Shown here in pieces: positions 8,604 to 52,300 of a stretch of DNA of 64,000 bases. The translations under genes were made by a program, and so were the position numbers. The stretch comes from Ectobacillus sp. JY-23 (GTDB lineage Bacteria; Bacillota; Bacilli; Bacillales; Bacillaceae_G): positions 3,452,001 to 3,516,000 of the forward strand of contig NZ_CP095462.1 of assembly GCF_023022965.1 (NCBI RefSeq). Reading direction: 5' to 3'. The notes under the pieces were generated by a model. That model saw only the letters and a list, made by a program, of their open reading frames with translations, had not been told where the DNA came from and did no database searches. Each line of letters starts with the position of its first letter. Within the stretch, counting starts at the first letter, position 1.

Positions 8604-10235
8604 GTGGGGAAAAGGAAAGTAGTAGCTTATTATGCGGGGTTTAGTATCGTATGGTTTGCAATGACAGAAGTAATGCGAAATGTATCGCCCCCGACGCTGC
8701 GCAATATTTTAATTAATAGCCGTTTGACTGATGTGCTGTATGCGGTTTTTTCATGTGCATTCATATACATATTTATGCGTCGCCAAAGGGCATACGAAGT
8801 AGATAAAGAAGAACATCGCTTGAGCACATTAATGAATTCCATGACGGATTTCATTAGCTTTAAGGATGGTGAGGGTCGCTGGATTCAGACAAATGATTTT
8901 GGTTTGCGATTGTTTCAACTAGAACATGTAGACTATAAAGGAAAAACGGATCGTGAGCTTAGCGCATACACGGAGTTTTACAAAGATGCGCTGATCTATT
9001 GCGAGCAATCTGATGAAGAAACTTGGAAAAGCGGCAAACTGACCAGAGTTGAGGAAATTGTTCCTCTACCTGAAGGTGGATTTAGAACCTTTGACACAAC
9101 CAAGATGCCTTTATTTCATGAAGATGGCAGACGGAAAGCTCTCGTTGTCATCGGTCGTGATATTACAGAGCGAAAAACGGCGGAAAAGCGTCTTGCAGAA
9201 AGTGAACAGCGTTATAAGTCCTTATTTGAATATAATCCCAACTTAGTATATATGATTGATGTGGACGGTAAGGTGACGAATCTGAATGCGCAATTCGAGA
9301 TGATAACAGGTTATGCGCGTGAAAGCTTTATAGGTGGCAATTTGCTTGAAATTATAGATGAACCATACCGTAAACCGATTTCGGAGGCATTTCGTAAAGT
9401 ATTAGCTAAAGGCGAAGCATATGTTACGCAGGAGATTGATATTCATCATAAAGATGGTACAACACGAACATTGAGCTGTACGTTTGTACCGATGATGATT
9501 GAGCAAAATGTGGTCGGCATGATTGGATACAGTCAGGATATTACAAAAATGCGACAAACAGAAGAGCGTTTGCGTCGATCAGAATTGCTATCTACTCTTG
9601 GTGAGTTAGCTGCAGGTGTGGCCCATGAGATACGCAATCCACTTACCTCCTTAAAAGGGTTTGTCCAGCTACTACAAAAGAGCGATTTACAACAAGCATA
9701 TTATTATACCATTATGTTAGATGAATTGGATCGTATTAACAATATTGTCGGAGAACTACTTGTGCTGGCAAAACCGCAGCAGCTTGTATTTGAACGGGAA
9801 CGTGTAGGGCAAATCGTCAAAGATGTATTGGCTTTGTTACAGCCGCAAGCAAACTTTCATGGAATTGAACTTGTGTTTCAGGAAGAACATTTACCCGCCA
9901 TTGATTGTGAAGGCAACCAACTGAAGCAGCTGTTTATCAATCTTGTTAAAAATGCCTTCGAGGCAAGTGCGACGATGGTTAAAGTGATGATAAAAGAGCG
10001 AGATGGTTATATCTCTATTCGGGTTCAAGACAACGGCTGTGGTATGCCACCGGAACGTCTTACTCATTTGGGGGAGCCATTCTTTTCAGTGAAAGAAAAA
10101 GGGACGGGGCTTGGATTAACGGTAAGCTATCGCATTGTAGAAGCGCATGGTGGCAAGCTTACCTTTACGAGTGAAGTCGGAGAAGGTACAGTAGCTGAAG
10201 TATTGCTACCGATTAAAAATCACACTTCCGTGTAA
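8604..10235 (+). CDS. PAS-domain sensor histidine kinase, sporulation-kinase type
   Basis: 543-residue membrane sensor kinase. Two hydrophobic segments (residues about 6-25 and 41-59) are followed by two PAS domains (about 70-190 and 200-325; each ends in an RDITERK or QDITKMR linker), a HisKA domain with the phospho-acceptor His341 in GVAHEIRNPLTSLKG, and an ATPase domain with N box (NLVKNAFEA), G1 (DNGCGMP) and G2 (GTGLGLT). The HEIRNPLTSLKGF signature and lone-gene setting, with no response regulator beside it, match the KinA-KinE kinases that feed the Spo0A phosphorelay. The start is GTG with AAAAGGAGAACGG upstream. Confidence 0.88.
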   Translation: MGKRKVVAYYAGFSIVWFAMTEVMRNVSPPTLRNILINSRLTDVLYAVFSCAFIYIFMRRQRAYEVDKEEHRLSTLMNSMTDFISFKDGEGRWIQTNDFGLRLFQLEHVDYKGKTDRELSAYTEFYKDALIYCEQSDEETWKSGKLTRVEEIVPLPEGGFRTFDTTKMPLFHEDGRRKALVVIGRDITERKTAEKRLAESEQRYKSLFEYNPNLVYMIDVDGKVTNLNAQFEMITGYARESFIGGNLLEIIDEPYRKPISEAFRKVLAKGEAYVTQEIDIHHKDGTTRTLSCTFVPMMIEQNVVGMIGYSQDITKMRQTEERLRRSELLSTLGELAAGVAHEIRNPLTSLKGFVQLLQKSDLQQAYYYTIMLDELDRINNIVGELLVLAKPQQLVFERERVGQIVKDVLALLQPQANFHGIELVFQEEHLPAIDCEGNQLKQLFINLVKNAFEASATMVKVMIKERDGYISIRVQDNGCGMPPERLTHLGEPFFSVKEKGTGLGLTVSYRIVEAHGGKLTFTSEVGEGTVAEVLLPIKNHTSV

Positions 10236-11326: not shown

Positions 11327-12319
11327 CTATGCTTGCAAGCACCGCATCACTTCATCGCCAAATTCGCGCAAATAATGTAAATAGTGATTGCCACCGTAGT
11401 TGTAGCGTTTGTTATACATGCGTGCGATCACTAAATCATGCTCGGGGATCACGAGTAATAAGGGACCTGTTACACCTAAAATTTGATAGGAACCCGGTGG
11501 TACGAGTGCGCCTATTTCACTTAGGGCTGTGTCGCGTGTTTTTACATACCAGAAGAAGCCGTTTTCAGGTAATGCTGCGTTAGATAGGTCTGGACTTTGT
11601 AGAGAGGTGGCTAAATTAAAAACAGCTTCCGGAATGACTTGATTGCCAGCTATATTACCGCGTCGTAAATGAAGATATCCCCAATAGGCCAGCTCACGAG
11701 CTGAAACATATAAGTTTTTTTCATCGCCATTATCGCCCAAAGCAAGCGGGAGGTCTGAACCGTTTTCTGTAATCACGGAGACCATAGATTTGTTTGGTTC
11801 TGTCCGCCAATGCGTTTCTTTGAAATGAAGTTGTTTAAACACGCGCTTACGAAGCAATTCGCCGACACTTTGTCCCATCGTACGCCTTACAATCTCAGCT
11901 ATCATGACAACATTGATGTTTTCATAGGACCAATGTGTACCAGGCGTAAACTTGCGGTAGACATGGCCGTCAGGACGTTCACTTAACCCATGTGTATGTG
12001 TTAACAAGTGCCGAATGGTAGTGTGTGACAGTAAATCTTTGTCCCAATCGGGTAGATAAAAAGACACCGGGTCATCTATAGATTGGATTTTATGTTCGTA
12101 TAATGCTAAAGCAGCTGCAAAGCCGATATAGCTTTTACGGGCAGAAGCAATGTGAAATTGTGAGTTTTCCCGAATGGGAGGAGCTCCGGCATCATGGGTA
12201 TGATGCCCGCTGTAATAGGAGGTGAAATGGTCGCGGTGTAGGATGGCAAGTGCGCTACCAGAGGCTCCATTCTTTTGGCCGATATCCATGGTGTATGACA
12301 TAAGGCGATCGAATGCCAT
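11327..12319 (-). CDS. Serine hydrolase of the beta-lactamase / penicillin-binding fold
   Basis: 330-residue class C beta-lactamase-like hydrolase without a signal peptide, hence probably cytoplasmic. The nucleophile motif SxxK is visible as SARK near residue 60 and the YxN motif as YEN near residue 150. Family members act as esterases or D-amino-acid peptidases as often as on beta-lactams. RBS GGGGGCTAAGAG precedes the ATG. A small membrane-protein gene lies 12 bp upstream on the same strand, so the two may form an operon. Confidence 0.82.
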   Translation of the reverse strand: MAFDRLMSYTMDIGQKNGASGSALAILHRDHFTSYYSGHHTHDAGAPPIRENSQFHIASARKSYIGFAAALALYEHKIQSIDDPVSFYLPDWDKDLLSHTTIRHLLTHTHGLSERPDGHVYRKFTPGTHWSYENINVVMIAEIVRRTMGQSVGELLRKRVFKQLHFKETHWRTEPNKSMVSVITENGSDLPLALGDNGDEKNLYVSARELAYWGYLHLRRGNIAGNQVIPEAVFNLATSLQSPDLSNAALPENGFFWYVKTRDTALSEIGALVPPGSYQILGVTGPLLLVIPEHDLVIARMYNKRYNYGGNHYLHYLREFGDEVMRCLQA

Positions 12320-23346: not shown

Positions 23347-23445
23347 ATTTATTTTAACGCTATTAGAGCACTAGCAGGGATAAGCGGGACACCAAAATCA
23401 AATAATTGTAATATGTATGGAAATGAACAGCAGGAGAGACGCCTC

Positions 23446-24684
23446 ATGTATTATAAGCAAAGTAATAAGATGCGTATATACGCAGAGATGATATTGTTAT
23501 TTCTTGCGGTGTTTTGGGTAGATATGCTGTTTTCGTTACAGTTGACTACCTTGCAGCCGAGCCCATTTTTATTTCTGATTTTGTTGTTTAGTCTTCGTTA
23601 TGGCTGGAGAGCAGGCATTGTGAGTTTTGGATTCATTCTTGCATATGTCACGGCTTTAGAGGTTATGGCAAGAGGCGATGTAGTTGTGATGCTTTATAAG
23701 CTTTTGTCAAATCAATGGATGTTTGTATATTTGTTTATTGCTATTTTTGTGGGCGCAACGAGAACAGCCTGGAAGGAACGATATGACGACTTGTATTTTG
23801 TAAATGATGAGCAGAAGAAGGAGCTTCAATCTGCACAGCGGGCAGTAGCACAGCTGAAAAAGACCAATGAAGTATTAGAGCAGAGACTGCTGCAATCCGA
23901 GATGAGTATCGGATCTGTGTATGGTATGATTCGCGCACTTGATCAAGATAATATTGAATTTGTTACAAATAAAGCGATGTCTATTTTAACATCGTATTTT
24001 AAAGCGAATGATTTTGGTATTTATCATGCAGATACATCAGGGCGTGCTTTGCGAGTAAAAGTGCGAAAAGGTTCTCAAGAAGCGCTCCCACAAACCATTT
24101 TCTTAGATGAAGCCGAGCGGTTTTACGAGCGTTTATTTACTGAAAAAAAGCTTGTTGTAAAACGGGAAAGTGATGAAGCTGCTGCACCTGTCATAGCTGG
24201 GCCGATTGTCGTGAACGGTGAAATACGTCAGGTACTGATTATCCAAAGCATGGACTTCTATCAATTAACTGAGCATAATATCCAGTTGCTGCACTGGCTG
24301 TTGCGGATGATTTCAGATGCTCTTGAGCGTGCTGCAGCAAAAGCGCTGATTAAGCACCGTGCCAAAGTGTATCCACATACGCTGCTTTATAAAAAAGAAT
24401 TCTTTGATGAGTATATGCAAATTGAAAAGCAACGCTTTGATATGTATAAGCAGCCCTATGCTTGTTTTGACATATTTATAGGACGTCCAACCGCAGAGCA
24501 GCTTGTTGTGATGAGTGATATTATCCATAAGCATCTGCGTGAGGTAGATAAAGTAGGTTTTGATGCTGATACTGGCAAGCTCCTCTTTTTATTGCCGGGT
24601 ACAAATCAAACGTACGTAGAACAATTGCGTGAGCGTATTGTTACTAAGCTACAGGATGAGGTGGGAACGATTCATGGAACTTAA
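23446..24684 (+). CDS. pelD: PelD, c-di-GMP receptor of the Pel polysaccharide synthase
   Basis: 412-residue membrane protein. Four hydrophobic segments fill residues about 10-105, a coiled coil follows (about 115-150), then a GAF-like domain (about 160-300) and a degenerate GGDEF-like domain. The C-terminal domain keeps the RxxD I-site motif as REVD (Arg365-Asp368), by which PelD binds c-di-GMP. A start at 23413 lacks a ribosome site; ATG 23446 follows CAGGAGAGACGCCTC. It heads an operon with pelE-pelA-pelF-pelG, overlapping pelE by 11 bp. The identification rests on domain order, the motif and the neighbours. Confidence 0.86.
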   Translation: MYYKQSNKMRIYAEMILLFLAVFWVDMLFSLQLTTLQPSPFLFLILLFSLRYGWRAGIVSFGFILAYVTALEVMARGDVVVMLYKLLSNQWMFVYLFIAIFVGATRTAWKERYDDLYFVNDEQKKELQSAQRAVAQLKKTNEVLEQRLLQSEMSIGSVYGMIRALDQDNIEFVTNKAMSILTSYFKANDFGIYHADTSGRALRVKVRKGSQEALPQTIFLDEAERFYERLFTEKKLVVKRESDEAAAPVIAGPIVVNGEIRQVLIIQSMDFYQLTEHNIQLLHWLLRMISDALERAAAKALIKHRAKVYPHTLLYKKEFFDEYMQIEKQRFDMYKQPYACFDIFIGRPTAEQLVVMSDIIHKHLREVDKVGFDADTGKLLFLLPGTNQTYVEQLRERIVTKLQDEVGTIHGT

Positions 24685-25588
24685 GGTGTATACAGTACCT
24701 ATCGTCCTTTTTTATATCATTCATGCAGCGGTTGTCCTTGTGTTAATGAAGCTGGTAAAGAAAAAAAACCAAGAAGATCTTGGTGTATGGAAGTGGGTTG
24801 CTGCGATGAGTATCATACTGCCCATTATCAGCCCTCTTTTGGGCTATATTGTCTGGAGGGCTGCGAAGCGTATTCAGCATGATACCCTCCATTCCTACGA
24901 TACCTATATTGATTTTTCGTTTTTAAACTATGATGAAGTTGCGATTGAAGCAAGAAAGGGCTTAGAACTCACTTCATTTTCAGTGGGGCTACAAGGTGGA
25001 AATGCCAATCTGCGCAAACATTTAATTGTCCGATTGATGGAGATGGAATTTGAAAACAGAGGTGCTTATTTAGCAAAAGCCTTGCACAGTGTGGATACAG
25101 AAACCGTTCATTATGCTGCAACGACTATGAATCATGTGAAAGAAAGCTATGAAAGAATGATTGATGAGCAAGAAAAGCAGCTTTCTGAAGATGATGTACA
25201 TAGTTACTTGACATTGTGTAATACGTACAATCAGTGTATCCGCAGCAAAATTATGGATGAGGCTATGGAAAAGCGTTTATATGCAGAATTTCAGTATGTC
25301 TTGGAAGAAGCTTTGTCGTTATTTCCAAATCATCTTGTATTTGCAGATTATCTAGTGTTTGTTTATCAAGCAATGGGAGAGCGTACCGCTGCACTGGAGT
25401 TGGCGGAAGAGATGGTAAAGAAGTTTCCTACAAATAGTGAAGGGTATATTCGGTTGCTTGCCTTGTATTTTGAGCAGCATGACTTTCGCAGTATGAAATA
25501 CGTATATCAAAATTTGCAAAGAAATGTGAGAGAAGCGGATATCCCTGCATCTGTAAAACCAGTACTGGATGTAGTGAGGAGTGTATAA
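24674..25588 (+). CDS. pelE: PelE-like membrane protein with TPR-type helices
   Basis: 304-residue protein with two N-terminal membrane segments (VPIVLFYIIHAAVVLVL and a second around residues 36-54) followed by helical repeats resembling TPR units (for example around residues 205-270). In the Pel system PelE is a scaffold that works with PelD and PelG at the membrane. The chosen ATG lies inside the end of pelD after GAGGTGGGAACG. The stop codon is directly followed by the next start. Sequence alone would not identify it; position in the operon does. Confidence 0.75.
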   Translation: MELKVYTVPIVLFYIIHAAVVLVLMKLVKKKNQEDLGVWKWVAAMSIILPIISPLLGYIVWRAAKRIQHDTLHSYDTYIDFSFLNYDEVAIEARKGLELTSFSVGLQGGNANLRKHLIVRLMEMEFENRGAYLAKALHSVDTETVHYAATTMNHVKESYERMIDEQEKQLSEDDVHSYLTLCNTYNQCIRSKIMDEAMEKRLYAEFQYVLEEALSLFPNHLVFADYLVFVYQAMGERTAALELAEEMVKKFPTNSEGYIRLLALYFEQHDFRSMKYVYQNLQRNVREADIPASVKPVLDVVRSV

Positions 25589-27403
25589 ATGAGTCGACAT
25601 TCGTATATTGTGTGGGCGGTTACCGCAATCATACTGCTTCTATTGGTAGCCATTATACAAATGATAAGGGTAGATGGTTTTTATAAAGTATTCCCGGCAA
25701 AGGGAGTTAAGACGGGGAAAGTAGAAACAATGAGCAGTCAAGTCAAACCCACTGGTGAAGAGCTACAGGTTACACTTGTGCAGGAAATAGCTCAAGATCC
25801 GATTATGGATAATATTGCGCGTACGCTTACATATGCGAAAATTCCCTTCTCTTATAAGAAGCCGGCAGAAACAATCAATCTTATACCATCGCCTTATCAT
25901 ATTTTGGTTATAACCGATCGCGTGCTGCCTTATGAGCAAGTAAAACAGTTTGTTGCAAATGGTGGCCGTCTGTTTGTGGCGCAGCGTTTTCTGGATGAGG
26001 AATGGAATGAGTTGGTTGGTATCGAAGAAAACCAAGGTTATTTGGAAAATGATGCATATGGTTTGCAGATGCAAAAGCCCCTTTTTCCCGGATATGAAAC
26101 AATTGCGGATGATAACGGCGCAATCCCTAACAGCATGCTTGATGTAGTACTGTCTGAAAAAGCACAGGTGTATATAAGTGCAGAAGGCATTCCGATGCTG
26201 TGGACACATCAATATGGCAAAGGAAAAGTGGTTTATTGGAACGCTACCTTTTTGGTCACAAAATATACGCGCGGTCTGATTACGCAATCTATAGGCCTGG
26301 CACCTCCGCAATTTGTAAGCGGGCAGGCAGCGATGAAAGTAATGTTTATTGATGATTTTCCCGCACCGTTTCCGGCAGGATTCACAGATATGATTACAAA
26401 GGATTATAAGCTAACCACACAGGAATTCTTTGAACAGATATGGTGGCCAGACTTAAAGAAAATTGCTGATCAAGAGCGGGTGCATTACACGAATGTGTTT
26501 ATCGGTACATACCAAAATAATGATCGTGTAACAGCATCTCAATTGATACAAGAGCTGCGACATCCGATGATTTTCTTTGGAAGAGATGCTTTGCGCCGCG
26601 GAGATGAGCTTGGCTTTCATGGTTATAATCATCAGCCTCTCGTAACTGCTGATGAGCCAATGGATCCTAACCTGCAATATACACCGTGGCAATCGAGTGA
26701 GCATATGAGAAAATCTATCCGCAAGGCGCAGGAGGCATTTTCTCACTATTTTCCACGTCAAGTAGTGCATTCTTATGTACCGCCATCCAATATTGTAAAT
26801 CAAACAGGTTTGCAGGCTTTGAAAGATACGCTGCCATCTCTGCGCGTTATTGCATCTTTATATGATGCAGGTGAAGGGGTAGGGGTGTTTGAGCAGGAGT
26901 TTGAGGCGGATGCGCAATATCAGGATGTATTTTATTTACCGCGTATTTCCAGCGGATACAAGCAAGGCGCATTTGAAATGCTGGCCATTACAGATGCAAT
27001 CGCAAACTTCGGTATGTTTAATCATTTTATTCATCCCGATGATGTCCTAGATGTTGACCGCGCCGATAAAGGTGGCTGGAAGCAGATGCAGGCAGGCTTG
27101 TCTGACTTAATGAAGCGCATTCGCACTAAATATCCCTCATTGCGCGCGTATCGCGCTTTTGATGCTGCAAATACACTACAGCAGTATCAGCAGGCACAGA
27201 TGTATGTTCATTATAAACAGAAGGAAATTAGCATTTCCGGAAGAAATCTTGTAAATCCTTCTCATGCTTATATTCGGTTGGAAAACGGAGCGATAGCAGA
27301 AGGAAGATTTGCAGGTTATCGTGTGAAAAAGCTGGCTGAAGGACTATATGATGTGCAGTTGACGAAGCCGTTCGTCACGATTGAGGTAAAGGAAGTGAAG
27401 TGA
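25589..27403 (+). CDS. pelA: Pel polysaccharide deacetylase (PelA deacetylase-type, DUF2194)
   Basis: 604-residue protein with one N-terminal membrane anchor (residues about 7-27) and a large extracellular part. A Rossmann-like segment (about 100-230) precedes a carbohydrate-deacetylase domain. Its metal and catalytic residues are visible in FIDDFPAP (Asp-Asp) and GFHGYNH (HxxxH). It would partially deacetylate the GalNAc-rich Pel polymer. In Pseudomonas, PelA also carries a glycoside hydrolase domain; here that role appears to be split off into the gene at 30774. It starts on the base after the pelE stop. Confidence 0.82.
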   Translation: MSRHSYIVWAVTAIILLLLVAIIQMIRVDGFYKVFPAKGVKTGKVETMSSQVKPTGEELQVTLVQEIAQDPIMDNIARTLTYAKIPFSYKKPAETINLIPSPYHILVITDRVLPYEQVKQFVANGGRLFVAQRFLDEEWNELVGIEENQGYLENDAYGLQMQKPLFPGYETIADDNGAIPNSMLDVVLSEKAQVYISAEGIPMLWTHQYGKGKVVYWNATFLVTKYTRGLITQSIGLAPPQFVSGQAAMKVMFIDDFPAPFPAGFTDMITKDYKLTTQEFFEQIWWPDLKKIADQERVHYTNVFIGTYQNNDRVTASQLIQELRHPMIFFGRDALRRGDELGFHGYNHQPLVTADEPMDPNLQYTPWQSSEHMRKSIRKAQEAFSHYFPRQVVHSYVPPSNIVNQTGLQALKDTLPSLRVIASLYDAGEGVGVFEQEFEADAQYQDVFYLPRISSGYKQGAFEMLAITDAIANFGMFNHFIHPDDVLDVDRADKGGWKQMQAGLSDLMKRIRTKYPSLRAYRAFDAANTLQQYQQAQMYVHYKQKEISISGRNLVNPSHAYIRLENGAIAEGRFAGYRVKKLAEGLYDVQLTKPFVTIEVKEVK

Positions 27404-27404
27404 T

Positions 27405-28820
27405 ATGCGAATTGCCATTGTAACAGAGGGGAGCTATCCGTTTGTACGAGGGGGTGTGGCGAGCTGGGTGCATATGCTTGTGACAAGTCTCTCTCATATA
27501 GAATTTGATATTATTTCCATTATGCCAAGCAATTTTCAGGAACAGGGCTATACATATTCATTGTCAGCTAATGTTCGTAGGGTATGGCTGTATCGGTTAG
27601 GAGAATCTGTGAAGGAAGGCGGAGAAACAAGGCTATTAGCCAGTGAGGTAGAGACTGTCTCAAATTGGCTTTCTTTTGATACAGCTGTGCCGCAAGCGTT
27701 GCAGATTCTTTCTGATACCAACCGAGTAGGCAACGGGCAGTCCTTTTTACAAAGTACATATTTTTGGGATATTGTCCAGCAGGCTTATCTGGCAGAAGAA
27801 CAATCCAGTTCTTTTATAGATTATTTTTGGATATATCGTGCCATGTGTGAAAGTCTTATTTCCTTACTGCAGCAAGAGTTTCCAAAAGTAGATTTAATTC
27901 ATGCTGTATCAACTGGCTATGCTGGCTTGATTGCTGCGCACATAAAAGAAACACAAGGCATTCCGTTTATTTTAACGGAACATGGGATTTATACGCGGGA
28001 GCGCCAAGAAGAGATTTTGCGAGCATCCTGGATCCCGAATGTATACAAGGATCGCTGGATTCGCTATTTTTCCCATTTATCAGCGCAAGCCTATGAAAGC
28101 GCTAATCAAATTATTACGCTTTTTAGGCGTAATAGTGAACATCAAAAAGAACTTGGAGCACCTGTAAAAAAGCTGCGCATCATTCCCAATGGCATTGACT
28201 GTGAAAGGCTAAGCACGATTAAGAAGAAATATACTGGTAAGAAGCTCTGTATAGGTGCAATCGTCCGTGTTGTGCCAATTAAGGATATTAAGGCGATGAT
28301 TTACGCTGCTCGTATTTTGTTAGATGAGGAAATTGACTTTGCATTATCCATTATGGGTCCCATGGATGAAGATCGTGAATATGCGAGGGAATGTGTAGAA
28401 CTCGCTACGCGTCTGGAGGTGTTATCGCATGTAACGTTTTTGGGTCAGGTGCAAGTTGTAGATCATCTGCCGTATTTGGATGTGCTGCTTTTGACAAGCA
28501 TCTCAGAGGGACAGCCATTAGCGATATTGGAAGGGTTAGCTGCGGGTATTCCATTTATCGCAACAGACGTTGGTTCTTGTGCAGAATTGCTTCTAGAAGA
28601 TGATGGATTTGGGCCGGCCGGTTTTATTGTACCTCCTGTGAATCCTAAAGCAGTTGCGGAGAAATGTATATGGGTCTATCACAATCGAGAAGAAGCAAGA
28701 AAGCTCGGGGCAAATGGAAAGCGCCGCATGCAGGCTAAGTATGAATGGTCTGATGTTGCTAGACAATATATAACGATTTACGAAACGGAGGTGCAGCGTA
28801 ATGGCGGGAATTGGGTTTAA
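27405..28820 (+). CDS. pelF: PelF glycosyltransferase (GT4 family)
   Basis: 471-residue cytosolic GT4-type glycosyltransferase that polymerises UDP-linked sugars for Pel. The N-terminal MRIAIVTEGSYPFVRGGVAS segment is strongly PelF-like; LTEHGIYTRER and the IPNGID hinge follow. The donor-site pattern SEGQPLAILEGLAAG (Glu...Glu, near residue 370) is complete. It follows the deacetylase gene by one base and overlaps pelG by 20 bp. Confidence 0.92.
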   Translation: MRIAIVTEGSYPFVRGGVASWVHMLVTSLSHIEFDIISIMPSNFQEQGYTYSLSANVRRVWLYRLGESVKEGGETRLLASEVETVSNWLSFDTAVPQALQILSDTNRVGNGQSFLQSTYFWDIVQQAYLAEEQSSSFIDYFWIYRAMCESLISLLQQEFPKVDLIHAVSTGYAGLIAAHIKETQGIPFILTEHGIYTRERQEEILRASWIPNVYKDRWIRYFSHLSAQAYESANQIITLFRRNSEHQKELGAPVKKLRIIPNGIDCERLSTIKKKYTGKKLCIGAIVRVVPIKDIKAMIYAARILLDEEIDFALSIMGPMDEDREYARECVELATRLEVLSHVTFLGQVQVVDHLPYLDVLLLTSISEGQPLAILEGLAAGIPFIATDVGSCAELLLEDDGFGPAGFIVPPVNPKAVAEKCIWVYHNREEARKLGANGKRRMQAKYEWSDVARQYITIYETEVQRNGGNWV

Positions 28821-30264
28821 GATGCAAAAGCTATTTAAGGAAGACTACTTTTCCGCGCGTGTTCGCGCTTACGGCTTTGCGGTGCTTATTACCGCTGGAC
28901 CGTGGCTTGTCGTTGTAGTCACACTTGCTTTGGTGCAGTGGCTAATTGGTATGGCCGGTGTAACCATGCAGGTACGTGAATTGTTTTTAGCATCTATCTC
29001 GTATTGCTTTATTTTTTCTCAGGTTATCTTTGGAGTACAAAATTTAATTGTGACACGTTATATTGCGGATTTGTTTTATGAAAAGCGTTCCGATGAAGTA
29101 TACCCTACCTTTCTGGGGGCTTCTCAAACAGCAATCGGATTGGGAATCATTCTTTGGTGCGTGTTTGCCATATTTTCACCGTTGCCGTTTCTGTATAAGC
29201 TGCTGTTGCTGATTTTATTGAGTGTAATGAATGTCATTTGGATATTATTTTTATTTTTGACTGCTGCTAAATACTATCAGCCAATCGCCTACAGCTTTAT
29301 TCTGGGCGGGGCTGCGAGTCTCGGTGCGACGGCACTTCTGATATATCTGGTCGAGTTCAGTCAATATTCGGTACAAATGAATGCGTTTCTTCTCTTGGCT
29401 GCATTCACGTTCGGTATGGTTGTAACGTTGTTCGTTTTATATTTTTCGCTATTGATTAGCTTTCCAAAGCGAAGTGCCACAAATCCATTTACGTATCTTA
29501 CTTATTTTGATCGGTATCCGTCTCTCTTTTGGACAGGCTTTCTATATAATGCCGGTGTTTGGGGATGTAACTGGATCATTTGGTTTGGAGAAGGCGCGTC
29601 CTATATAGAAGGTTCGTTTCGGTATCATACGTTATATGATACGGCCGTTTTTTTGGCATATTTATCTATCATTCCAACAATGATGCTCTTTGTACTTTCA
29701 ATTGAAACACGTTTTTATCAGCGCTATCGCACTTTTTACGGCTATATCAATGAAGGCGGCTCTTTGCAGCAGATTAAAAGAGCTAAGGAGACGATGCAAA
29801 TTGTGCTGAGGCAAGAATTGGAGCGCTTGCTGCGAAATCAGGGCTTATTTTCAATTCTTGTGATGGCCACTATTGTGTACTTTGCGGAAAGATTCGGGAT
29901 TCAACAGCCGTTTTTTGGCATGTTATGTATCACAATTGTTGGTGCATTTGCGAATGCTATGGTGCTTGTAATCAGTTTGCTGCTGCTGTATTTTGAAGAC
30001 CGAAAGGGAGCTATGTATACAAGCATCATTTTCTTTACTTCCAACATATTGCTCACATTGCTTTGTATGCCGCTAGGTCTTGATGGATATGGCCTTAGCT
30101 TTGCTATTAGCTCTATTCTGACATTTGTATATACCTCCTTTAGACTGACTGCGTATGTGAAAGACATCGATTTTCACACATTTATGGGAGATAAAGGAGC
30201 AGCTGAACGGAAAACATCGTACTTTCACAGATTAGGGAGGTTCTTCAATCGCTTAGGACTATAG
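28801..30264 (+). CDS. pelG: PelG, membrane transporter of the Pel system
   Basis: 487-residue polytopic protein with about 12 hydrophobic segments, of the polysaccharide-transporter (MATE-like) type. The N-terminus MAGIGFKMQKLFKEDYFSARVRAYGFA matches the cytosolic lead typical of PelG in spirit and the SPFLYKLLLL-type inner helices follow. It would form the synthase complex with PelD, PelE and PelF. The start codon is inside pelF. It is the last gene of the core operon; a MITE-like element lies 30 bp downstream. Confidence 0.87.
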   Translation: MAGIGFKMQKLFKEDYFSARVRAYGFAVLITAGPWLVVVVTLALVQWLIGMAGVTMQVRELFLASISYCFIFSQVIFGVQNLIVTRYIADLFYEKRSDEVYPTFLGASQTAIGLGIILWCVFAIFSPLPFLYKLLLLILLSVMNVIWILFLFLTAAKYYQPIAYSFILGGAASLGATALLIYLVEFSQYSVQMNAFLLLAAFTFGMVVTLFVLYFSLLISFPKRSATNPFTYLTYFDRYPSLFWTGFLYNAGVWGCNWIIWFGEGASYIEGSFRYHTLYDTAVFLAYLSIIPTMMLFVLSIETRFYQRYRTFYGYINEGGSLQQIKRAKETMQIVLRQELERLLRNQGLFSILVMATIVYFAERFGIQQPFFGMLCITIVGAFANAMVLVISLLLLYFEDRKGAMYTSIIFFTSNILLTLLCMPLGLDGYGLSFAISSILTFVYTSFRLTAYVKDIDFHTFMGDKGAAERKTSYFHRLGRFFNRLGL

Positions 30265-30293
30265 AAGCAACAGCATTATTTTGCTTTTTAAAT

Positions 30294-30466
30294 AGGCTCT
30301 GTTAAAGTTCGTTGTTGATTTCCGTTACGGGGGTTCGCTTTCCGCGGGCAGTCAGGGAGCCTCCTCAGCGCTATGCGCCTGCGGGGTCTGCTTGTCCCGC
30401 AGGCGTCTCCCCCCTTCACTCCAGTCAACAAGTACCCATTATCAACATTAGGCTGTAACATAGCCT
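30294..30466. mobile_element. MITE-like element, copy C (173 bp)
   Basis: Terminal inverted repeats AGGCTCTGTTA (left) and TAACATAGCCT (right) differ at one base. They are flanked by an exact 6-bp duplication TTAAAT (30288-30293 and 30467-30472). The interior is GC-rich and can fold (CGCCTGCGGG / CCCGCAGGCG). No open reading frame. Related ends occur in the copies at 33264 and 39656. Confidence 0.72.
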
Positions 30467-30586
30467 TTAAATAAAGAAATATAAAAAACATGTATGAATT
30501 TACAGAAAAATAATATTTTTATTAAAGTATTATTTTTCATTTTATTGTTTATTATCTTATTATAAATTAAACTTAATATAAAAATA

Positions 30587-30731
30587 TGGTGATGGGCAAA
30601 CTTGTTGAAAAGCAAGGACGCAAAGACATGGGTCGTCGATATCTGAAACAATATAAGCGCTTTTTAGGGCCGAGAACCTTAGATTCTGTGCCAAAGCGGC
30701 CAGCTCCGCTTTTCAGGTATACCGATCGCCA
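30587..30731 (+). ncRNA. Class I c-di-GMP riboswitch (GEMM) with extended P2
   Basis: The GEMM core is visible: GGGCAAA at 30594, a hairpin CTTGT-TGAAAA-GCAAG with a GNRA-type loop, then GGACGCAAAG at 30616-30625. The closing helix P1 pairs TGGTGAT (30587-30593) with ATCGCCA (30725-30731), 7 pairs with one G-T. P2 is unusually long: CTGAAA and AAGCG arms find TTTCAG and CGCTT partners about 60-80 bases later, with an inner GGCCG/CGGCC stem. A 62-codon frame across this region lacks an RBS and is rejected. Ligand class (c-di-GMP or the related cGAMP variants) cannot be fixed without an alignment. Confidence 0.78.
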
Positions 30732-30741
30732 GTCTGCGAAA

Positions 30742-30765
30742 CCTCCCATCCCCCCATTGAGGAGG
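30742..30765 (+). promoter_or_regulatory. RBS-masking hairpin, expression platform of the riboswitch
   Basis: CCTCC (30742-30746) can pair with GGAGG (30761-30765), the core of the ribosome-binding site for the hydrolase gene starting at 30774. No T-tract terminator is seen, so control is probably translational. Confidence 0.6.
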
Positions 30766-30773
30766 GATTTGTA

Positions 30774-31607
30774 GTGAAGGTGGTAAAGTTTTTGTTTTGT
30801 GTGGTGGTGGCTTTAGCTGCATTTTGGCCAAGTATAGGAAAGGTGCAAGCTAGTTTGGTGAATCCGCTGAAGGGCGCGAAGACGTATAAGATTTTTTATA
30901 ATGCACCAAACAAACGGATGTTATCGCAGCTAGCGACATATGATTTTGTCATCATTGAGCCGTATCATTACAATGCTACAAAAATTCAGCAACTGCAAGC
31001 AAAGGGTACCAAGGTGTATGGATACATAAGTACAATGGAGGCTGCAAGCTGGAATCAAGAGCTGATGAAGCGTTTTGCCGCAAAGGATTTTTTTTATCGG
31101 GGTGGCAAAAAAGTACATTATGCGGAATGGGATTCTTATCTGATGGATATCACTTCTGTACATTACCGCGGTATCCTTATGGAGGAAATTAAAAAGCACA
31201 TTGTAGAAAAGGGATTTGACGGTATTTTTCTGGATACAGTAGGTGATATTGACAACGAGCATACGGGCTCTGTGCTGCTTCAGCAGCGACAAGGGATGAA
31301 AACCTTCTTGCAGGGAATCCAGAAAAAGTATCCTAACCTATCCTTGATTCAAAACTGGGGCTTTGCCACATTAAAAAGCACAACAGCACCATATGTAGAC
31401 GCTATTATGTGGGAGGGGTTTCACTATAAGAGTGTCGCACGTGATGAATGGTCTTTAAACCGCATCCGTGACCTTCACGCTCTGCGAAAGCAATACGAAA
31501 TAGAAGTGTTGACGGTTTCATCTGCGGAGAAGGAAAAAAGCACATTGCTTGCGAAGCAAAATGGATTTATCCATTTTCATACGAATCGCGGCTATGACGC
31601 TTGGTAA
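30774..31607 (+). CDS. Secreted endo-alpha-1,4-polygalactosaminidase-type glycoside hydrolase
   Basis: 277-residue protein with a signal peptide (basic MKVVKF, hydrophobic core, cleavage near VQA-S). The rest is a TIM-barrel of the GH114/TM1410 type: YDFVIIEPYHYN, GTKVYGYIST, a central GFDGIFLDTVGD strand with a candidate catalytic Asp, and IMWEGFHY with a candidate catalytic Glu. Such enzymes cleave galactosaminidic polymers, including Pel-like ones. Start is GTG after GAGGAGGGA. It is placed after the Pel operon and behind a c-di-GMP riboswitch, which suggests controlled release or trimming of Pel. Confidence 0.85.
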   Translation: MKVVKFLFCVVVALAAFWPSIGKVQASLVNPLKGAKTYKIFYNAPNKRMLSQLATYDFVIIEPYHYNATKIQQLQAKGTKVYGYISTMEAASWNQELMKRFAAKDFFYRGGKKVHYAEWDSYLMDITSVHYRGILMEEIKKHIVEKGFDGIFLDTVGDIDNEHTGSVLLQQRQGMKTFLQGIQKKYPNLSLIQNWGFATLKSTTAPYVDAIMWEGFHYKSVARDEWSLNRIRDLHALRKQYEIEVLTVSSAEKEKSTLLAKQNGFIHFHTNRGYDAW

Positions 31608-43226: not shown

Positions 43227-43328
43227 CATATAAATGCATTTCGTATCACATGTAGCTCTTATTATATGTGAATTAGGTGAATTGCTCTATTAGGTGAATA
43301 TGCATTTATATGGCAGGTTCATATTATA
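43227..43328 (+). promoter_or_regulatory. Repeat-rich control region upstream of the giant gene
   Basis: A perfect 13-bp inverted repeat CATATAAATGCAT (43227-43239) / ATGCATTTATATG (43300-43312) encloses a direct repeat TTAGGTGAAT (43273-43282 and 43290-43299, 17-bp step). CATATTATA at 43320-43328 fits a sigma-K -10 but no AC pair is seen at the right distance. The rest of the 400-bp divergent intergenic region (42989-43387) shows no clear gene. Confidence 0.55.
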
Positions 43329-43387
43329 TGAAAATAATATTAGATATGTACCAAATTTTTGATTATATCAAGTATAGAGGTGAATTT

Positions 43388-46300
43388 ATGGCAATTGTAA
43401 ATCGCTATTCCACCACAACAAATGGTGGACTCGCTATCACCGGCAATACAGTGGGGCTTAGTAAGCTTGCCAACGCGAACCAGGCCGGAGATGTTCATGC
43501 AATCGGTGCTTTTACTACAATCAATACGGCCCAGCAAGTACCGACGTTTCCAGCCGGTACGACGCTCAATTATACAAGCAATAGTTCGTCGGCCATTTTA
43601 ACTCTCCCTGCAGGAAGTACGGTGTTATATGCGGAGCTGGTATGGGGCGGGAATTATTTATCGCGCGATCAAAATATATCAGCTGTTTTAAACAATCCAA
43701 TCACTTTTCGCTCTCCCGCTGGATTTTTCAATATAACCCCTGATTCCACGACCGCAAGTAACCTTGTGACGGGTAGCAGTCCACAAATTGGTTTTTATGT
43801 TCGTTCAGCGAACGTCACAACCATTGTGCAAAACGGCGGGACCGGCACGTATACAGCAGGATCTGTACCGGGACTTGTGGATCCTTTGGAAGCATCAAAT
43901 GGTGTGGTGAATCATTCTGGATGGACACTGCTTGTTGCCTATCAAAATGGAGCGGAACCCGCACGGAATTTAAATATATACGTGGCAGGTAATATTGTTT
44001 CGGGAAGTACAGGCACATCTGATATTGTTGTATCTGGATTTTTGACTCCTACAGCAGGGCCGGTTAGTGGTCGTCTGTTTTTAAGTGCGGGCGAGGGTGA
44101 TGCTGTTATCAACGGTGACCAGGCTTTATTCGGTCCGAATTTAAGCTCGTTAACAGCTCTGTCGGGACCCAATAATCCTGTTAACAACTTTTTTGCATCG
44201 CAAATTAATAACTCAGCAGGAACTCTTGATACAACGGGTACGTTTGGAAGCCGCAACCAAAATGCGCAGAGCGGCACCAATATTTCAGCGGGCAGACAGA
44301 GCTGGGACATTACGGCTGTGGATGTATCACCATATTTGGCGAATTCCCAAACAACGGCCGCCATTCGTCTCCGTACGTCTGGAGATACGTATGCGCTCAA
44401 TACGGTTGGTATTCAAATCAATATTAACGCTCCTAATATATTTCCAACGAAAAGCGTCAATAAATCTGTCGCAAAAATCGGAGATGTTCTGACATACACC
44501 ATTACAGTTCCTAACACAGGTAATTTACCGGCGAACAATGTGATTTTGACGGATGTACTACCGAATGGTCTGGCGTTCGTGCCAGGTAGTGTAACCGTCA
44601 ATGGTACGGCTCAGCCTACAGCCAATCCGGTGTCTGGAATTAACTTAGGAACGATTGCAAACGGCGCAACACGAACGATCGTGTTTCAAGTAACTGTCGT
44701 CAGCTATCCCACGCCAAATCCTATCGCTAATCAGGCAAACGTTAATTATCAATATACACCGATAGCCGGTCAAACCTTAAATGGAACAGGTACGAGCAAT
44801 GCTGCGACAACAACTGTCAACAAGGCAATCATTGAAGCAAGCAAGTCGGTTGATCGGACGTTCGCTACCATCGGAAATAATTTGACGTATACCATTACAC
44901 TTAGAAATACAGGAAACATTACCGCCAATAATATTGTATTGACTGACGCCATTCCATCAGGAACGGTTTTTGTACCGGGCAGCGTGACGGTTAATGGAGC
45001 AGCGCAACCTGCTGCTAATCCTGCGACGGGCATTAATGTGCCGTCGATTGCAGCCGGTGCTGTGGCCACGGTCACGTTTCAAGTAAATATTCCCTCTGTC
45101 CCTGCAATCAACCCGGTCGTAAACGCCGCAAATGCTTCTTTTCAATATACGCCGATTACAGGCGAACCTGCGATTACAGAAAGCACAGCTACAAATAATG
45201 TTTCCACACAGATTAATGATGCTACCGTTACCATTAATAAAACAGTCAACCGTAGTTTTGCCGATATTGGAGATGTGTTAACCTATACGCTTCTTTTCAC
45301 AAACAGTGGAAACGTACCGGCTAATAATGTGATTTTGACTGATGCGACTCCAGCAGGTACAACATTTGTTCCAAACAGTGTATTTGTTGATGGTGTGCAA
45401 CAGTTCGGTGTAAATCCAGCAAATGGGATTAATATTGGTAGTGTATTAAATAATGGCACAAAAACGGTACGATTCCAAGTCACCGTCCAGTCTACTGGCG
45501 TCGCAACAAACAGTGGATCCGCTACGTATCAATATACAGTTGATCCAAATCAACCACCACTGAGTAAAAATGCCACATCTAACACAGTCAGCACACAGGT
45601 GAACAATGCGAATATTACAGTCACGAAAGCAACAGACCGTGCTTTCGCTACCCTAGGGGATGTGATTACGTATACGTTGAACGTGACAAACAGCGGAAAC
45701 ACAGCAGCAAACAATGTCGTACTGCAGGATGGTATTCCAGTAGGAGTCGCGTTCGTGCCAAATAGCGTATTCATAAATGGCTCGCAGGTAGCAGGAGCAG
45801 ATCCAGCGCTTGGCATCGATATTGGGACCGTTCCGTCAAGCACAAATATGACAGTGACGTTTCAGGTGACGGTAACGTCGATTCCACCGCTGAATCCGCT
45901 GATGAACATGGGGAATGCGACATACAACTATACAGTCGATCCGCAACAACCACCTATATCCAAAACGAGCACCTCAAACTCGGTGCAAACAACGATTAAT
46001 GATGCGACCCTAGTCTTAAATAAAAAAGTAGATAAGACGCTTGTTGTGACAGGAAATGAGCTGACATATACAATCACGCTTACCAATCAAGGAAATGTGC
46101 AGGCGTTCAATGTATTTTTTAGCGATGCTGTACCACCGGGAACCGTTCTTGTGCCAAACAGCGTTGTGGTGAATGGTGTGACGCAGCCGGGAGCGAATCC
46201 ATCAGGCATCACAATAGGCAGTATTGCAGCAGGTGGTACGGCACAGGTGTCGTTCACCGTACAGGTCGTAAGCATACCGACACCGAATCCGATTCCGAAC

Positions 46301-49300
46301 GCAGCTTCTGCTTCCTACAATTTCAGCGTTGATCCAAACCAAGCACCTGCCTTTGAAACAGCGTCATCTAATACCGTCCTCACACAGGTTACGGATGCAG
46401 ATGTTGTGGTGGTAAAAACAGCCAATCAAGCTACTATTAATGTAGGTGAAGTGCTGACATATACGGTGACGCTGACGAACAATGGTACGGCAGCGGCTGA
46501 GGCGCCGCAATTTACGGACGTATTGCCGCCCGGGCTTACTTTTGTAGCCGATAGTTTCACAATCAATGGTGTACCACAGCCTGGTGTGGATCCGGCAGGT
46601 CCGGTATTACTGAGCGATATTCCGGTAGGCGGAAGCGTCACGATTACCTTCCAGGCAACAGCGACAAGTATTCCGGCGGTTAACCCAACTGTTAATACTG
46701 CTTCTATCACGTATAATCCCTCTTTGCCTGAAACAGCTAGTAGCAATCCGCTTGCGACGCGAATCAACACAGCGATTGTTACGGCGCAAAAGAGCGCGAG
46801 CGCAGCGATTACCGATGTGGGTCAAACCCTCACGTACGCGATTAAGCTCACAAACAGTGGAAACGTAGCAGCTGATAATATCGTGGTAACAGATATTATT
46901 CCGGCAGGCACATCGTTTGTTCCGAATAGCTTCAATATCGGTGTGGTACCACAGCTTGGCGCTAACCCCGCCACGGGTGTTCCAATCGGAAGCCTCCCAG
47001 CAGGGGGTGTCGTAAATGTTACCTTCCAGGTCGTTGTAAATACGATTCCAGTATCAAACACATTGTCCAATTTCGCGGCAGCCACGTATCAATATACGTT
47101 CGATCCGACAAGACCGCCGGCCAGCGGCAGTGCGACGACAAACACGGTTGTCACCGAGGTACGAAACGCGACGCTTGTGCTGGATAAGTCTGTAGATGCA
47201 GCATATGCGGACGTTGGGCAGGTTGTAACGTATACGACGACGCTTACGAATACGGGAAATATTATAGCTAATGCAGTTACCTTTAGTGACAGCATCCCAG
47301 CTGGTACTGTATTCAACGCTGGTAGTGTACTTGTAAATGGTGTACCACAGGCAGGAAATCCGCAAGCTGGCTTTTCTATTGGTTCTATTGCGCCAGGTGC
47401 AACAACGACAGTCATATTTACGGTTACAGTCACAGCCATTCCGACGCCTAATCCGATTCCAAATACAAGCCGCGCGACGTATCAGTATACACCGGATGCA
47501 ACGACAATTTCGGCGACGGCCGTTTCGGATACGGTCACAACACAGGTCAATCGCGCCATATTGACAGCCGTAAAGCAGGTAAGTAATACGGTAGCCGATG
47601 TAGGCACTGTTTTGACCTATACAACCCAAATTACTAACACAGGAAATGTCGCGGCCACAGGCGTGATATTCACTGATGCAATTCCGGCTGGAACGGCATT
47701 TGTGCCGAACAGTGTAGTAGTAAATGGCACACCGCAGCCCGGTAATCCAGGAGCGGGAATTAATATTGGGACAATTGCGCCGGGCGCGACATACACGGTA
47801 AGCTTCCAGGTTACCGTCATCACATTGCCTGCGTCTCCGATTCAAAATAGCGCGAATGTGGCGTATGCGTATCAAGTGAATCCGCTTGGGCCTTCTGTGC
47901 CAGCATCGACAACGAGCAATACAGTCTCTACCCAAATTAATACCGCAGTGGTAACAGCGACCTTGAGCGTTAATGAGGCAACCGCCTCAATCAATGACAT
48001 TTTGACGTATACAATTGCATTAACGAATAATGGGAATGTCAATGCTACTAATGTTGAGTTCACCAGTGGTAATCCACCAGGAACGGTCTTTGTATCAGGT
48101 AGCGTGATTATCAACGGAGTCGCACAACCAGGTGTTGATATCACGAATTTTGCCACGGTAGCAAGTATTGCACCAGGAACGACTATTTTGGTGACTTATC
48201 AGTCCCAGGTGACAAGCATACCTCCTAGTAATACGGTAGTGGATACAATTATAGGTACGTATCAGTATGTAGTAGGTGCCGGTCAGTCCATTGTGACAAA
48301 ACCGTTCACTTCCAATAGTGTAACGACACAAATTATCGAAGCGATCGTGACCGGACAAAAGGTGGTTAGCTCCACATTTGCAAAGCTCAATGATACACTC
48401 ATATATGAAACAATTCTTACAAATACGGGAAATGTTGTTGCCAACAATCTCGTTTTCACAGACCTAATTCCACAAGGAACGACGTTTGTCGGGGACAGTG
48501 TTTCTATCAATGGTGTACCGCAGTCTGGCTTGAATCCAGCAAGCGGAATTCCATTTGGGCCACTAGCACCGGAGGCAACAGTAGCGGTTTCCTTCCAGGT
48601 GACGGTTACAAGTGTACCTGCGGTCAATCCAATTCCGAACAGCGGAACGTTTACGTACAGCTTTGAGCGCGGCGGTACTATTGCAAGAAGCGGAAGTACG
48701 AACACGGTGTTTACGCAGGTTAATGATGCGACAGTCGTTTCCATTAAAGAAGGAGCTGTTAATAACGGTGTGTTGCGGACTTCTGCAACGAACGCGGCGA
48801 CGATTGGGGATACAATCACGTATACGGTGACGTTGACAAATACAGGTAATGTGCCGGCGAATAATAGTGTTCTCACAGATATCCTGCCACCAGGAACGAC
48901 TTTTGTACCAAACAGCATTACAATTAATGGTGTGCAGCATCTTGGCATCAATCCGGCTAATGGCATTACAATTGGCACCATCGATGCGTTTGCGACAGTG
49001 ACTATTTCCTTCCAAGTGCAGGTTGTATCTGTACCAAGCATCAATCCCATCATCAATGCAGCTTCCACTGTCTATAACATCAGAGTTAATCCAGATCAGC
49101 CGCCGGTCGTGCAAACATCTGTCAGCAACCCTGTTACGACGCAAATCAATCAAGCGATTCTTTCCGCAACTAAGGCTGCAAATCTCACATTTGCACAAAT
49201 TGGCGAGCCCATTCTATATACGATTACTCTTTCCAATACAGGAAATGTTGCGGCAAATAATATTACAGTGACAGATATAATTCCAAGCGGAACAGCATTT

Positions 49301-52300
49301 GTACCAAACAGCGTCCGGGTGGGAGGCGTGACACAGCCAGGGTCAGATCCTGCGGTAGGTATTCCTGTTGGCACCCTTGCCGCTAATGACTCTGTGTCTG
49401 TCACCTTCTTTGTTAATGTGACAACATTGCCGACACCGAATCCCATTCCGAACCAAGCGCAAGTGTCTTATGACTTTGTTGTTGATCCAGCGAGGGCACC
49501 AGTAGCCGCGACAACTTCTTCTAATACGGTATTTGTGACAGTAAACAATGCCAATGTACAGGGTGTGAAGAGTGTTGATAAAGCATTCGCGACAATTGGT
49601 GATACAGTGACATATAGCTTCGTGCTGACAAATACGGGTAACGTGTCTGCAAATAATATTACGCTTACTGATAGTATTCCAGCAGGCTTAGCGTTTGTAC
49701 CAAATAGCGTCACTATCAATGGCACAACACAACCAGCAGCGAGTCCGAGCGTGGGAATTTCCGTGCCGAGCATCCTTGGCGGCGCGACTGCAACGGTAAG
49801 TTTTCAAGCGGTAGTAACAGGTGTTCCCACTCCGTCCACTGCAACAAATACAGCCTCTATTTCCTATAATTATGTTGTTACACCTGGGCAGCCTCCTGTT
49901 GCGGGAAGTTCGCAAACAAATGCGGTTTCCACGGAAATTCGTGAAGCGACCATTACAGCTGTGCAAAGTGCTACACGGGTGGCATCGGTCGGCGATACGA
50001 TTACGTATACAACTGTATTAACCAATATAGGAAACGTGACAGCCATAAATCCGTTTTTCATGAACATTGCACCTTTGGGAACGGCGTTCGTACCGAACAG
50101 TGTGACTATCAATGGCGTTCCGATAACGTTCGATCCCGCGAATGGATTCAATGTAGGAGATATTCCTGTGGGAGGAAGTGTGACGGTTTCGTATCAAGCT
50201 ACCGTTATTTCAATTCCGCCTGGAGGTATTATTCCAAATACGAACTTCACTTCCTACACATTCGTTGTCGATCCAGCCACTGCACCGGTCACAAAAGTGG
50301 TCACAGCGAACGAAGTCACCACGACAGTCGTGGATGCGACTCTTGTTATCAACAAAGCGGTGAATCGTACGCTTGCCAGGGTTAATGATATTCTAGCGTA
50401 CACGTTCACCATCACAAATACGGGTAACGCGAATGCGTCAAATGTTGTATTTACTGATTTGATTCCACAAGGAACAGCGTTTGTGCCGAACAGTTTGATT
50501 ATCAATGGAGCAATCAACAATATAAATCCTGCGGGCGGTGTGAATTTGGGAATGGCTCCTACGGGCGGCAGCATTTCCTTGAGCTTTGAGGTGACAGTGA
50601 CAAACATTCCTGCGGTGAACCCGATTCCAGACAGCGCCACCCTTTCTTATCAGTTCATAAAAACGGCGCAGGATCCGCCAGTATCGCGCACCGCTTCCTC
50701 TAATACAGTGTTCACGACGGTTACGGACGCTATCGTTCTTTCCAATAAAACTGTGAATACTACCCAGGCGGCGATTGGCGATGTATTAACGTATACGATC
50801 ACCTTGACGAATGAAGGAAACACAGTAGCTAATGATGTTACCCTTACAGACACCATTCCAAGCGGTACTGTATTTGTACTTGACAGTGTGACTGTTAATG
50901 GTATTTCGCAGCCGGGCGTAACTCCTGCCAATGTGAACGTAGGAACTCTTGCGGCACTCGGCACGGCAACAGTGTCGTTTCAGGTGACGATTACAGGCAG
51001 TACAGCTGTATCCAACATGTCTGCAACAAATTATACGTTCCAAACGGACCCGCTCAATCCGCCCATTTCACAAACATCTCTCAGCAACATGGTGACGACG
51101 CAAGTAAACTTAGCGCAATTGTCCATCACCAAGTCAAGCTCGGTGGAATTCGCCGATATTGGCACGACGTATTGGTATATGTCCAACATTGTCAATACTG
51201 GAAACACTACTGCCAGCAGCATTAGGTTCACTGATATTGTAGACGATGACTTGATCTTTGTACCGAACACGTTGTTCGTAAATGGAGTGTTATTCCCAGG
51301 TGACCCGAACACTGGTATCGACCTTGGCAGCTTGGCACCAGGTGCTGCGGTGCATGTCCTGTTCAGCGTCCGAGTCATCAACTTCCCGGTTGTGAATCCG
51401 ATTCCGAACGTGAGCAACGCTACATTCAGCTACACGGGAGATCCGGCTAAACCACCTGTACAGGGAAGCACTACTTCTGGCACAGTCCTCGTTCAAATCA
51501 ACCGTGCGAATATCGTTGCGGAAAAATCGGTAACACCTGCGTTTGCCAACATAGGCGATACGTTAACGTACACGATTCCGCTGACCAATACAGGAAATGT
51601 CAACGCATTGAACGTCATTGCCACGGATAACCTGCCAAGCGGCATCACATTCGTGGACGGTACGCTGCAGGTAGATGGTGTGCCGCAAGCCGGAACACCG
51701 GCGAATATTGCTGTGGGCGTCATTGCACCAGGGGCAACTTCAACCATCACCTTCCAAGTGACTGTAACAGCACTGCCATCTGCTAATGACGTTGTGAATA
51801 CAGTCGGTGTGTCCTATACGTATCGGGTAAGTCCGATCGGCGCATCCTCGTTGCGAACCACAACATCTGGGCCGGTGACGGTACAGGTGAACAATGCAAA
51901 TCTTGTAGTTGTAAAAGAAGCAGACTTAGCCTTTGCAGATATTAACAGTACCATCACGTATACGATTACGATTACGAATACAGGAAACACCCCTGCAAAT
52001 CAGGTGATATTCACCGACTTGCTTCCGCCGGATACAGCACTGGTGAACGGCACCCTTACAGTTGATGGTGCACTTGTTTCTGGTAATCCAGGAGCGGGAT
52101 TAGAGCTGGGAACCATTGCGCCAGGACAGAATGTAATCGTCCGATTCGGCATCACACCAACGGGGATTCCGCAACAAAATCCAGTATTGAATACGGCAAA
52201 TGCACAGTATAGATATACGGTAGATCCGACTGCTCCGCAAGTGTCGGCTTTGGCAACGTCAGGACAAACGCAAACAAGAATTAACACAGCCATTTTAGGA

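Follow-up and report, generated by a model that had tools for sequence, protein, structure and literature searches.

How the making and the cutting of one biofilm polymer are coordinated is mostly unknown in general, and the pel locus of Ectobacillus sp. JY-23 raises the question of whether a single messenger, c-di-GMP, could act on synthesis through a protein and on degradation through an RNA. The window analyzed here, the whole 64-kb stretch of DNA, carries on its forward strand a complete Gram-positive pel operon, in which pelD (23413–24684), encoding a membrane protein that combines GAF-like and degenerate GGDEF-like domains (weak PF13492 match), is followed in order by pelE, pelADA (DUF2194), pelF and pelG (24629–30264; PF09960, 359 bits; NF038011 PelF, 341.8 bits with a cut-off of 100; PF16933 PelG, 447 bits). 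Between the end of pelG at 30264 and a downstream hydrolase gene lie 509 non-coding bases, the last part of which holds the riboswitch leader considered below; a second structured, repeat-looking stretch occupies 30300–30440, between pelG and the riboswitch. Elsewhere in the window, a 3670-aa open reading frame spans 43310–54322.

The predicted PelD retains a c-di-GMP I-site, R376-E-V-D379 with R408. R376, E377 and D379 are present in all 13 aligned PelD proteins and R408 in 12, the remaining row being gapped and ending earlier, and both the Pel operon directly upstream and the conserved RxxD motif (R376-E-x-D379) asserted in a preliminary description of this DNA are borne out. R376, D379 and R408 have the same spacing as the Bacillus cereus I-site residues R363, D366 and R395, and the Pel biofilm of B. 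cereus is reported to need c-di-GMP binding to PelD (PMC7112168). A single-sequence search of the PDB with PelD returned no matches, and a PelD profile matched GGDEF chains only.

The hydrolase gene (30774–31607, forward strand) starts with GTG at 30774 and encodes 277 aa with a PF03537 match of 56.5 bits (cut-off 27). Its N-terminus resembles a signal peptide by eye, suggesting secretion. Searched against the PDB, the protein matches PelA chains (9cgy, E 2.1e-12), and the candidate catalytic residues E214 and D160 are found in 13/13 and 12/13 relatives, respectively; family score, glutamate and PelA kinship together point to a PelA-type enzyme (PelAH; GH114 Pfam model) with predicted hydrolase activity and Pel as its likely substrate. 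The closest named counterpart, in Ectobacillus antri, is 77% identical and was the only match in a search of named genomes, while a plasmid search gave three distant matches in Deinococcus and Caballeronia. According to PMC7112168, B. cereus ATCC 10987 has the same five-gene operon, pelDEADAFG, with the PelD I-site, and a separate secreted hydrolase, PelAH (BCE_5582), of nearly the same length, whose catalytic E213 corresponds by position and motif to E214 here; unlike in the window, its gene is divergent. PelAH cuts the Pel biofilm of B. cereus, and its loss raises biofilm (PMC7112168). The hydrolase domain of Pseudomonas aeruginosa PelA (PDB 5tcb, 9cgy) is also related in sequence to the window enzyme. 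P. aeruginosa PelD senses c-di-GMP via RxxD, as the window PelD would, but hydrolase and deacetylase there form one protein within the operon, unlike in the window. We know of no RNA switch for P. aeruginosa pel.

Is the leader of this gene a c-di-GMP riboswitch, as first proposed? The Rfam GEMM model (RF01051), suggested at that stage as a check, gives a gathering-level match at 30585–30695, the only one of any Rfam family across the 64 kb; the score is marginal (35.4 bits, 0.4 bit above the gathering cut-off of 35; E 0.0032). A covariance model, R1, built from the leaders of seven relatives with the window leader left out, gives the stretch 30580–30776 a score of 116.8 bits (E 1.2e-27 in a search of 907 kb). 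The long second arm upsets the model fit, so the Rfam match falls short of the full aptamer; the relatives place its 3' end near 30743, which puts the c-di-GMP-I (GEMM-I) aptamer at 30585–30743 on the forward strand, ending 30 bases 5' of the hydrolase gene. The core elements listed in the preliminary description are all in place: GGGCAAA at 30594–30600, the GAAA (GNRA) hairpin at 30601–30616 and the GGACGCAAAG joint at 30616–30625. They are closed by a short P1 (GGT 30588–30590 with ACC 30741–30743) and followed by the second, receptor hairpin at 30624–30735, whose base (30624–30635 with 30723–30735) and extension (30639–30648 with 30711–30720) derive from a constrained fold with pairs counted over 20 leaders. 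The closing helix first described, with strands given as 130 bp apart, is seven base pairs with one G-U between TGGTGAT (30587–30593) and ATCGCCA (30725–30731). It does exist as a possible pairing but is not P1; one of its strands belongs to the 3' side of the second hairpin, so it excludes the aptamer fold, to which it is an alternative.

The pocket is intact, with G20 at 30595, A47 at 30622 and C92 at 30737 in the numbering of Vc2, and the letters G, A and C stand at these positions in all 20 leaders examined. The 3',3'-cGAMP variant of GEMM-I has A at position 20, and the G at 30595 speaks against that specificity. G20 is the selectivity base of the c-di-GMP-I riboswitch (PMC9262584). On Rfam score, pocket and R1 match, the window leader is almost certainly a c-di-GMP-I aptamer, with c-di-GMP as its predicted ligand.

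The window genome (3.89 Mb) has four RF01051 matches, three of them above the cut-off. One strong match (L002, 1918928–1919012, minus strand) lies directly before a 45-aa SinI-like anti-repressor (PF08671, 47.5 bits), and a c-di-GMP switch before sinI is reported for Bacillus methanolicus (PMC4342826). Another (L001, 2744823–2744907, minus strand) precedes a membrane GGDEF protein, a possible feedback loop, and a sub-threshold match of 34.5 bits (L004, 2964346–2964427) precedes a reading frame judged PAS-like by eye.

The unusual length of the P2 arm, remarked upon from the outset, is real: its tip holds the 3' half of a dispersed-repeat copy (30655–30714, forward strand). This stretch has 15 matches in the window genome, 15 in E. 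antri (G001) and at least 40 in the genome G003; none was found in G002. Intact copies are about 120 bases long and self-complementary, and had no Rfam match. The E. antri leader carries several copies in the same arm (L048, approximately 9490–9930), a larger insert than that of the window leader around the same pocket, and outside the genus the loop at this position is short in the relatives. The long arm is a dispersed repeat lodged in the aptamer and not a feature of the aptamer itself. Relatives' leaders L035, L037 and L039 score 43–70.6 bits with RF01051, and the short-armed L037 and L039, for which this is the best family, reach 58–71 bits; the marginal score of the window leader is thus attributable to its long second arm. 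The sister family RF03167 fits leaders L040 and L038/L047 better than RF01051.

Covariation supports both the GNRA hairpin and the second hairpin in alignments of 7 and of 20 leaders. In the 7-leader MAFFT alignment, which was not fitted to the model, 97.0% of cells pair and 22 cells show double changes, compared with 8.0 in shuffled and 0–6 in slid versions. The 20-leader alignment, made to the model and hence biased towards it, pairs in 94.5% of cells with 78 double-change cells (24.1 shuffled, 3–17 slid); eight of these leaders belong to a single family, and some are almost identical. P1 is weak, with only 69% of cells pairing in the 20-leader set. Of the seven pairs in the hairpin that masks the ribosome site, six show double changes over the 20 leaders, partly because two sequence groups differ. 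Taken together, the alignments show the aptamer and the hairpin over the ribosome site to be conserved, covarying structures. The pelAH leaders share with c-di-GMP-I riboswitches of RF01051 the GAAA hairpin, the GGACGCAAAG joint, the G20/A47/C92 pocket and the two-hairpin layout, and differ in the receptor arm, which bears GGGUC(G/U)UCGA in 19/20 leaders instead of the usual receptor letters, in the dispersed repeat within the arm of the window leader and in having a matrix hydrolase as target. Among 83 GEMM cores of other loci this motif occurred twice, both times in pelAH leaders. The pelAH leaders do not follow the common tetraloop receptor (CUAA..UAUG), whose letters, by a crude pattern, are present in 40 of the 83 other cores and so are not universal.

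We searched 397 genomes of the order with A1, built from 13 hydrolases, and found pelAH at 46 places in 39 genomes; with two further places in G003, the neighborhoods (20 kb, less at contig ends) of 48 places in 40 genomes were read. An intact aptamer, defined as an R1 match with E ≤ 1e-6 directly before pelAH, is present at 14 places (the window, L048, L052, L054, L056, L057, L091, L093, L101, L103, L104, L107, L114 and L115). In six of these pelAH lies behind pelG as in the window (the window, L048, L056, L057, L103, L104), in three it is divergent from pelD (L091, L093, L101), in two convergent with pelG (L114, L115), in L107 some kilobases from pel, and L052 and L054 have no pel in the locus. 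The other 34 places lack an intact aptamer, so its control of pelAH is not essential. In one of them, L050 in G003, a remnant of 35.1 bits (11655–11735) keeps both ends before pelAH but has lost the core, including the pocket joint and the second hairpin; L053 and L089, with non-significant R1 scores of 20.6 and 15.6 bits, may also be remnants. Upstream of pelAH in L053, L089, L098 and L099 there are possible degenerate aptamers (GGGGCAAACTCGT.., GGGCGCAA..) with little or no model support, which could reflect decay or changed specificity.

R1 stems from seven such leaders and is expected to find similar ones, the gene downstream being the independent part of the comparison. Across the order, pelAH leaders fill the first 11 ranks of the R1 matches (at least 73.7 bits; next 69.9). 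The ten best matches in 398 genomes of the class (at least 86.8 bits; next 71.9) comprise the window and nine further loci, each of the nine with pelAH downstream and pelD divergent, and in 398 genomes of the phylum only the window exceeds 75.1 bits. Among 56 lower-scoring or phylum loci, pelAH was found at four: E. antri again and L149, L152 and L155 of family f80. By eye, the aptamers of these three f80 loci are followed by a terminator-like hairpin rather than a ribosome-site mask. In total, the Bacilli sampled include 26 genomes, from 14 families, in which the aptamer precedes pelAH, and it very probably controls the gene.

The means of control is suggested by the expression platform (30745–30768), in which ATCCC (30748–30752, with CC 30754–30755) can pair with GG (30761–30762) and GGGAT (30764–30768) and so hide the AGGAGG ribosome site (30760–30765); this mask is supported in the 7- and 20-leader sets. 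Hiding of the ribosome site, as originally proposed, is supported, but the proposed masking strand, CCTCC at 30742–30746, is not: in several relatives it reads CCACC, CTACC or CCAACC and cannot pair with GGAGG. It is the stretch directly after it, ATCCC(T)C paired with GAGGGAT, that is conserved as the mask. On the 5' side, GATGGG (30591–30596) overlaps G20/G21 of the pocket and can pair with CCCATC (30745–30750) in a proposed ligand-free helix. The helix is mostly invariant (in one count no pair had double changes), with one compensatory change, AATGGG:CCCATT in L107, and has no clear counterpart among group II leaders. A search for an intrinsic terminator as platform found none at 30200–30800; U-runs after the mask in L054, L056 and L057 may add a partial termination effect in those leaders. 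Just 5' of the aptamer lies a candidate promoter-like site, TTTTCA-18-TATTAT (30534–30563), of a kind found four times where shuffles lead one to expect 1.5 and hence weak; no forward-strand promoter-like site was seen between the aptamer and the hydrolase gene.

The direction of the switch, on which the preliminary description took no position, was modeled by folding 20 leaders freely and with the aptamer enforced and comparing the cost of opening the ribosome site, using a nearest-neighbour model that ignores ligand energy and tertiary contacts. In 17 of the 20, opening is costlier with the aptamer formed; the cost drops in the window (−1.1 kcal/mol), L054 (−1.7) and L103 (−0.5). The window's own modeled difference thus goes against an OFF switch, and for this reason its direction rests on its relatives. 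Swap and shuffle controls covered 15 leaders other than that of the window. Native platform combinations gave a mean of +2.66 kcal/mol (n = 15), swaps within a sequence group +2.17 (n = 102) and swaps between the two groups +0.34 (n = 108). When the 5' flank was shuffled, six of the 15 native leaders exceeded all 15 shuffles and nine did not, and the shuffled means were above zero in 12/15, so that part of the effect is generic. The modeled relatives favor translational OFF, which is somewhat more likely than not the direction of control.

An ON switch built from the same riboswitch would work if the ligand favored a closing helix of the 5' flank with the masking strand (e.g., GATG:CATC, with G20/G21 staying in the pocket) and so freed the ribosome site; the hydrolase would then be made alongside the polymer and serve to trim it, comparable to the hydrolase domain within P. 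aeruginosa PelA. The negative differences of the window, L054 and L103 speak for this, as does the complementarity of 5' flank and masking strand, complete in group I and partial in group II, and in the Geobacter pilM switch ligand stabilization of P1 turns expression ON (PMC9262584). The other 17 leaders show the opposite, although the constrained model allowed a partial closing helix, and the perfect helix of group I runs into the pocket; we regard ON control as possible but rather unlikely. An unlikely alternative is that the riboswitch has decayed in the window strain, the repeat having weakened the aptamer and left the gene to a lasting ribosome-site hairpin or to its promoter. The low Rfam score would agree with decay, as would the modeled cost of forming the aptamer, which at 8.9 kcal/mol ranks in the top three for the 20 leaders (range 3.1–9.2), and the same-genus copy without an aptamer core (L050) together with the possible remnants L053 and L089. 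However, the leader keeps its pocket bases and the basal part of each hairpin intact, R1 scores the leader at well over 100 bits, and E. antri keeps the same pocket despite its still larger insert. That the resemblance is due to chance and no riboswitch exists is highly improbable: the marginal window score, taken alone, is its only support, and it is contradicted by the covariation and by the repeated occurrence in front of one gene across 14 families.

The best overall explanation, which we consider somewhat more probable than its alternatives combined, is a c-di-GMP-I riboswitch acting as a translational OFF switch of the pelAH-like gene, reciprocal to PelD. A promoter of its own, lying between pelG and the aptamer, probably drives transcription of the leader. 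At high c-di-GMP the aptamer would form and hold GATGGG in the binding pocket, so that ATCCC(T)C could pair with the ribosome site and hydrolase translation would be OFF; as c-di-GMP falls, GATGGG:CCCATC would take up part of the masking strand, and hydrolase would be made and exported. Because PelD needs c-di-GMP in B. cereus and its binding residues are kept here, one signal would promote Pel synthesis and restrain Pel degradation, and a drop in c-di-GMP would reverse both, with less synthesis and more degradation.

Related switches are known for other genes. The Vc2 riboswitch of Vibrio cholerae is described as a translational OFF c-di-GMP-I switch (PMC9262584); it shares the aptamer class and the proposed translational OFF control, while gene and platform differ. 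Bc1 in the mcpE leader of Bacillus thuringiensis is of the same aptamer class, also in Bacilli and with a ribosome-site effect, but unlike the window leader has a long platform with two terminators and precedes a chemotaxis gene (PMC11218506). The word riboswitch is absent from the main texts of PMC7112168 and PMC13254593, and open-licence papers gave no account of riboswitch control of a Pel hydrolase or polygalactosaminidase, or of a c-di-GMP riboswitch with a glycoside hydrolase. The Pel hydrolase would be a new target, and its leader a new subtype, within a known riboswitch class, and the reciprocal circuit is plausible.

For biofilm biology, two receptors for one messenger, a protein and an RNA, would be neighbors in this locus, and whether the hydrolase serves dispersal or trimming depends on the sign of the switch. 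The nearby losses of the aptamer offer natural comparisons, and the repeat in the receptor arm gives an idea of how large an insertion such an arm may accommodate. With about equal weight for and against, we propose a conserved two-receptor circuit in Bacilli, in which c-di-GMP turns Pel synthesis ON through PelD and, through a dedicated GEMM-I subtype distinguished by its receptor motif and masking hairpin, turns the hydrolase OFF, so that a fall in c-di-GMP would lead to enzymatic dispersal, and in which a repeat grew within the arm in Ectobacillus while the pocket was kept.
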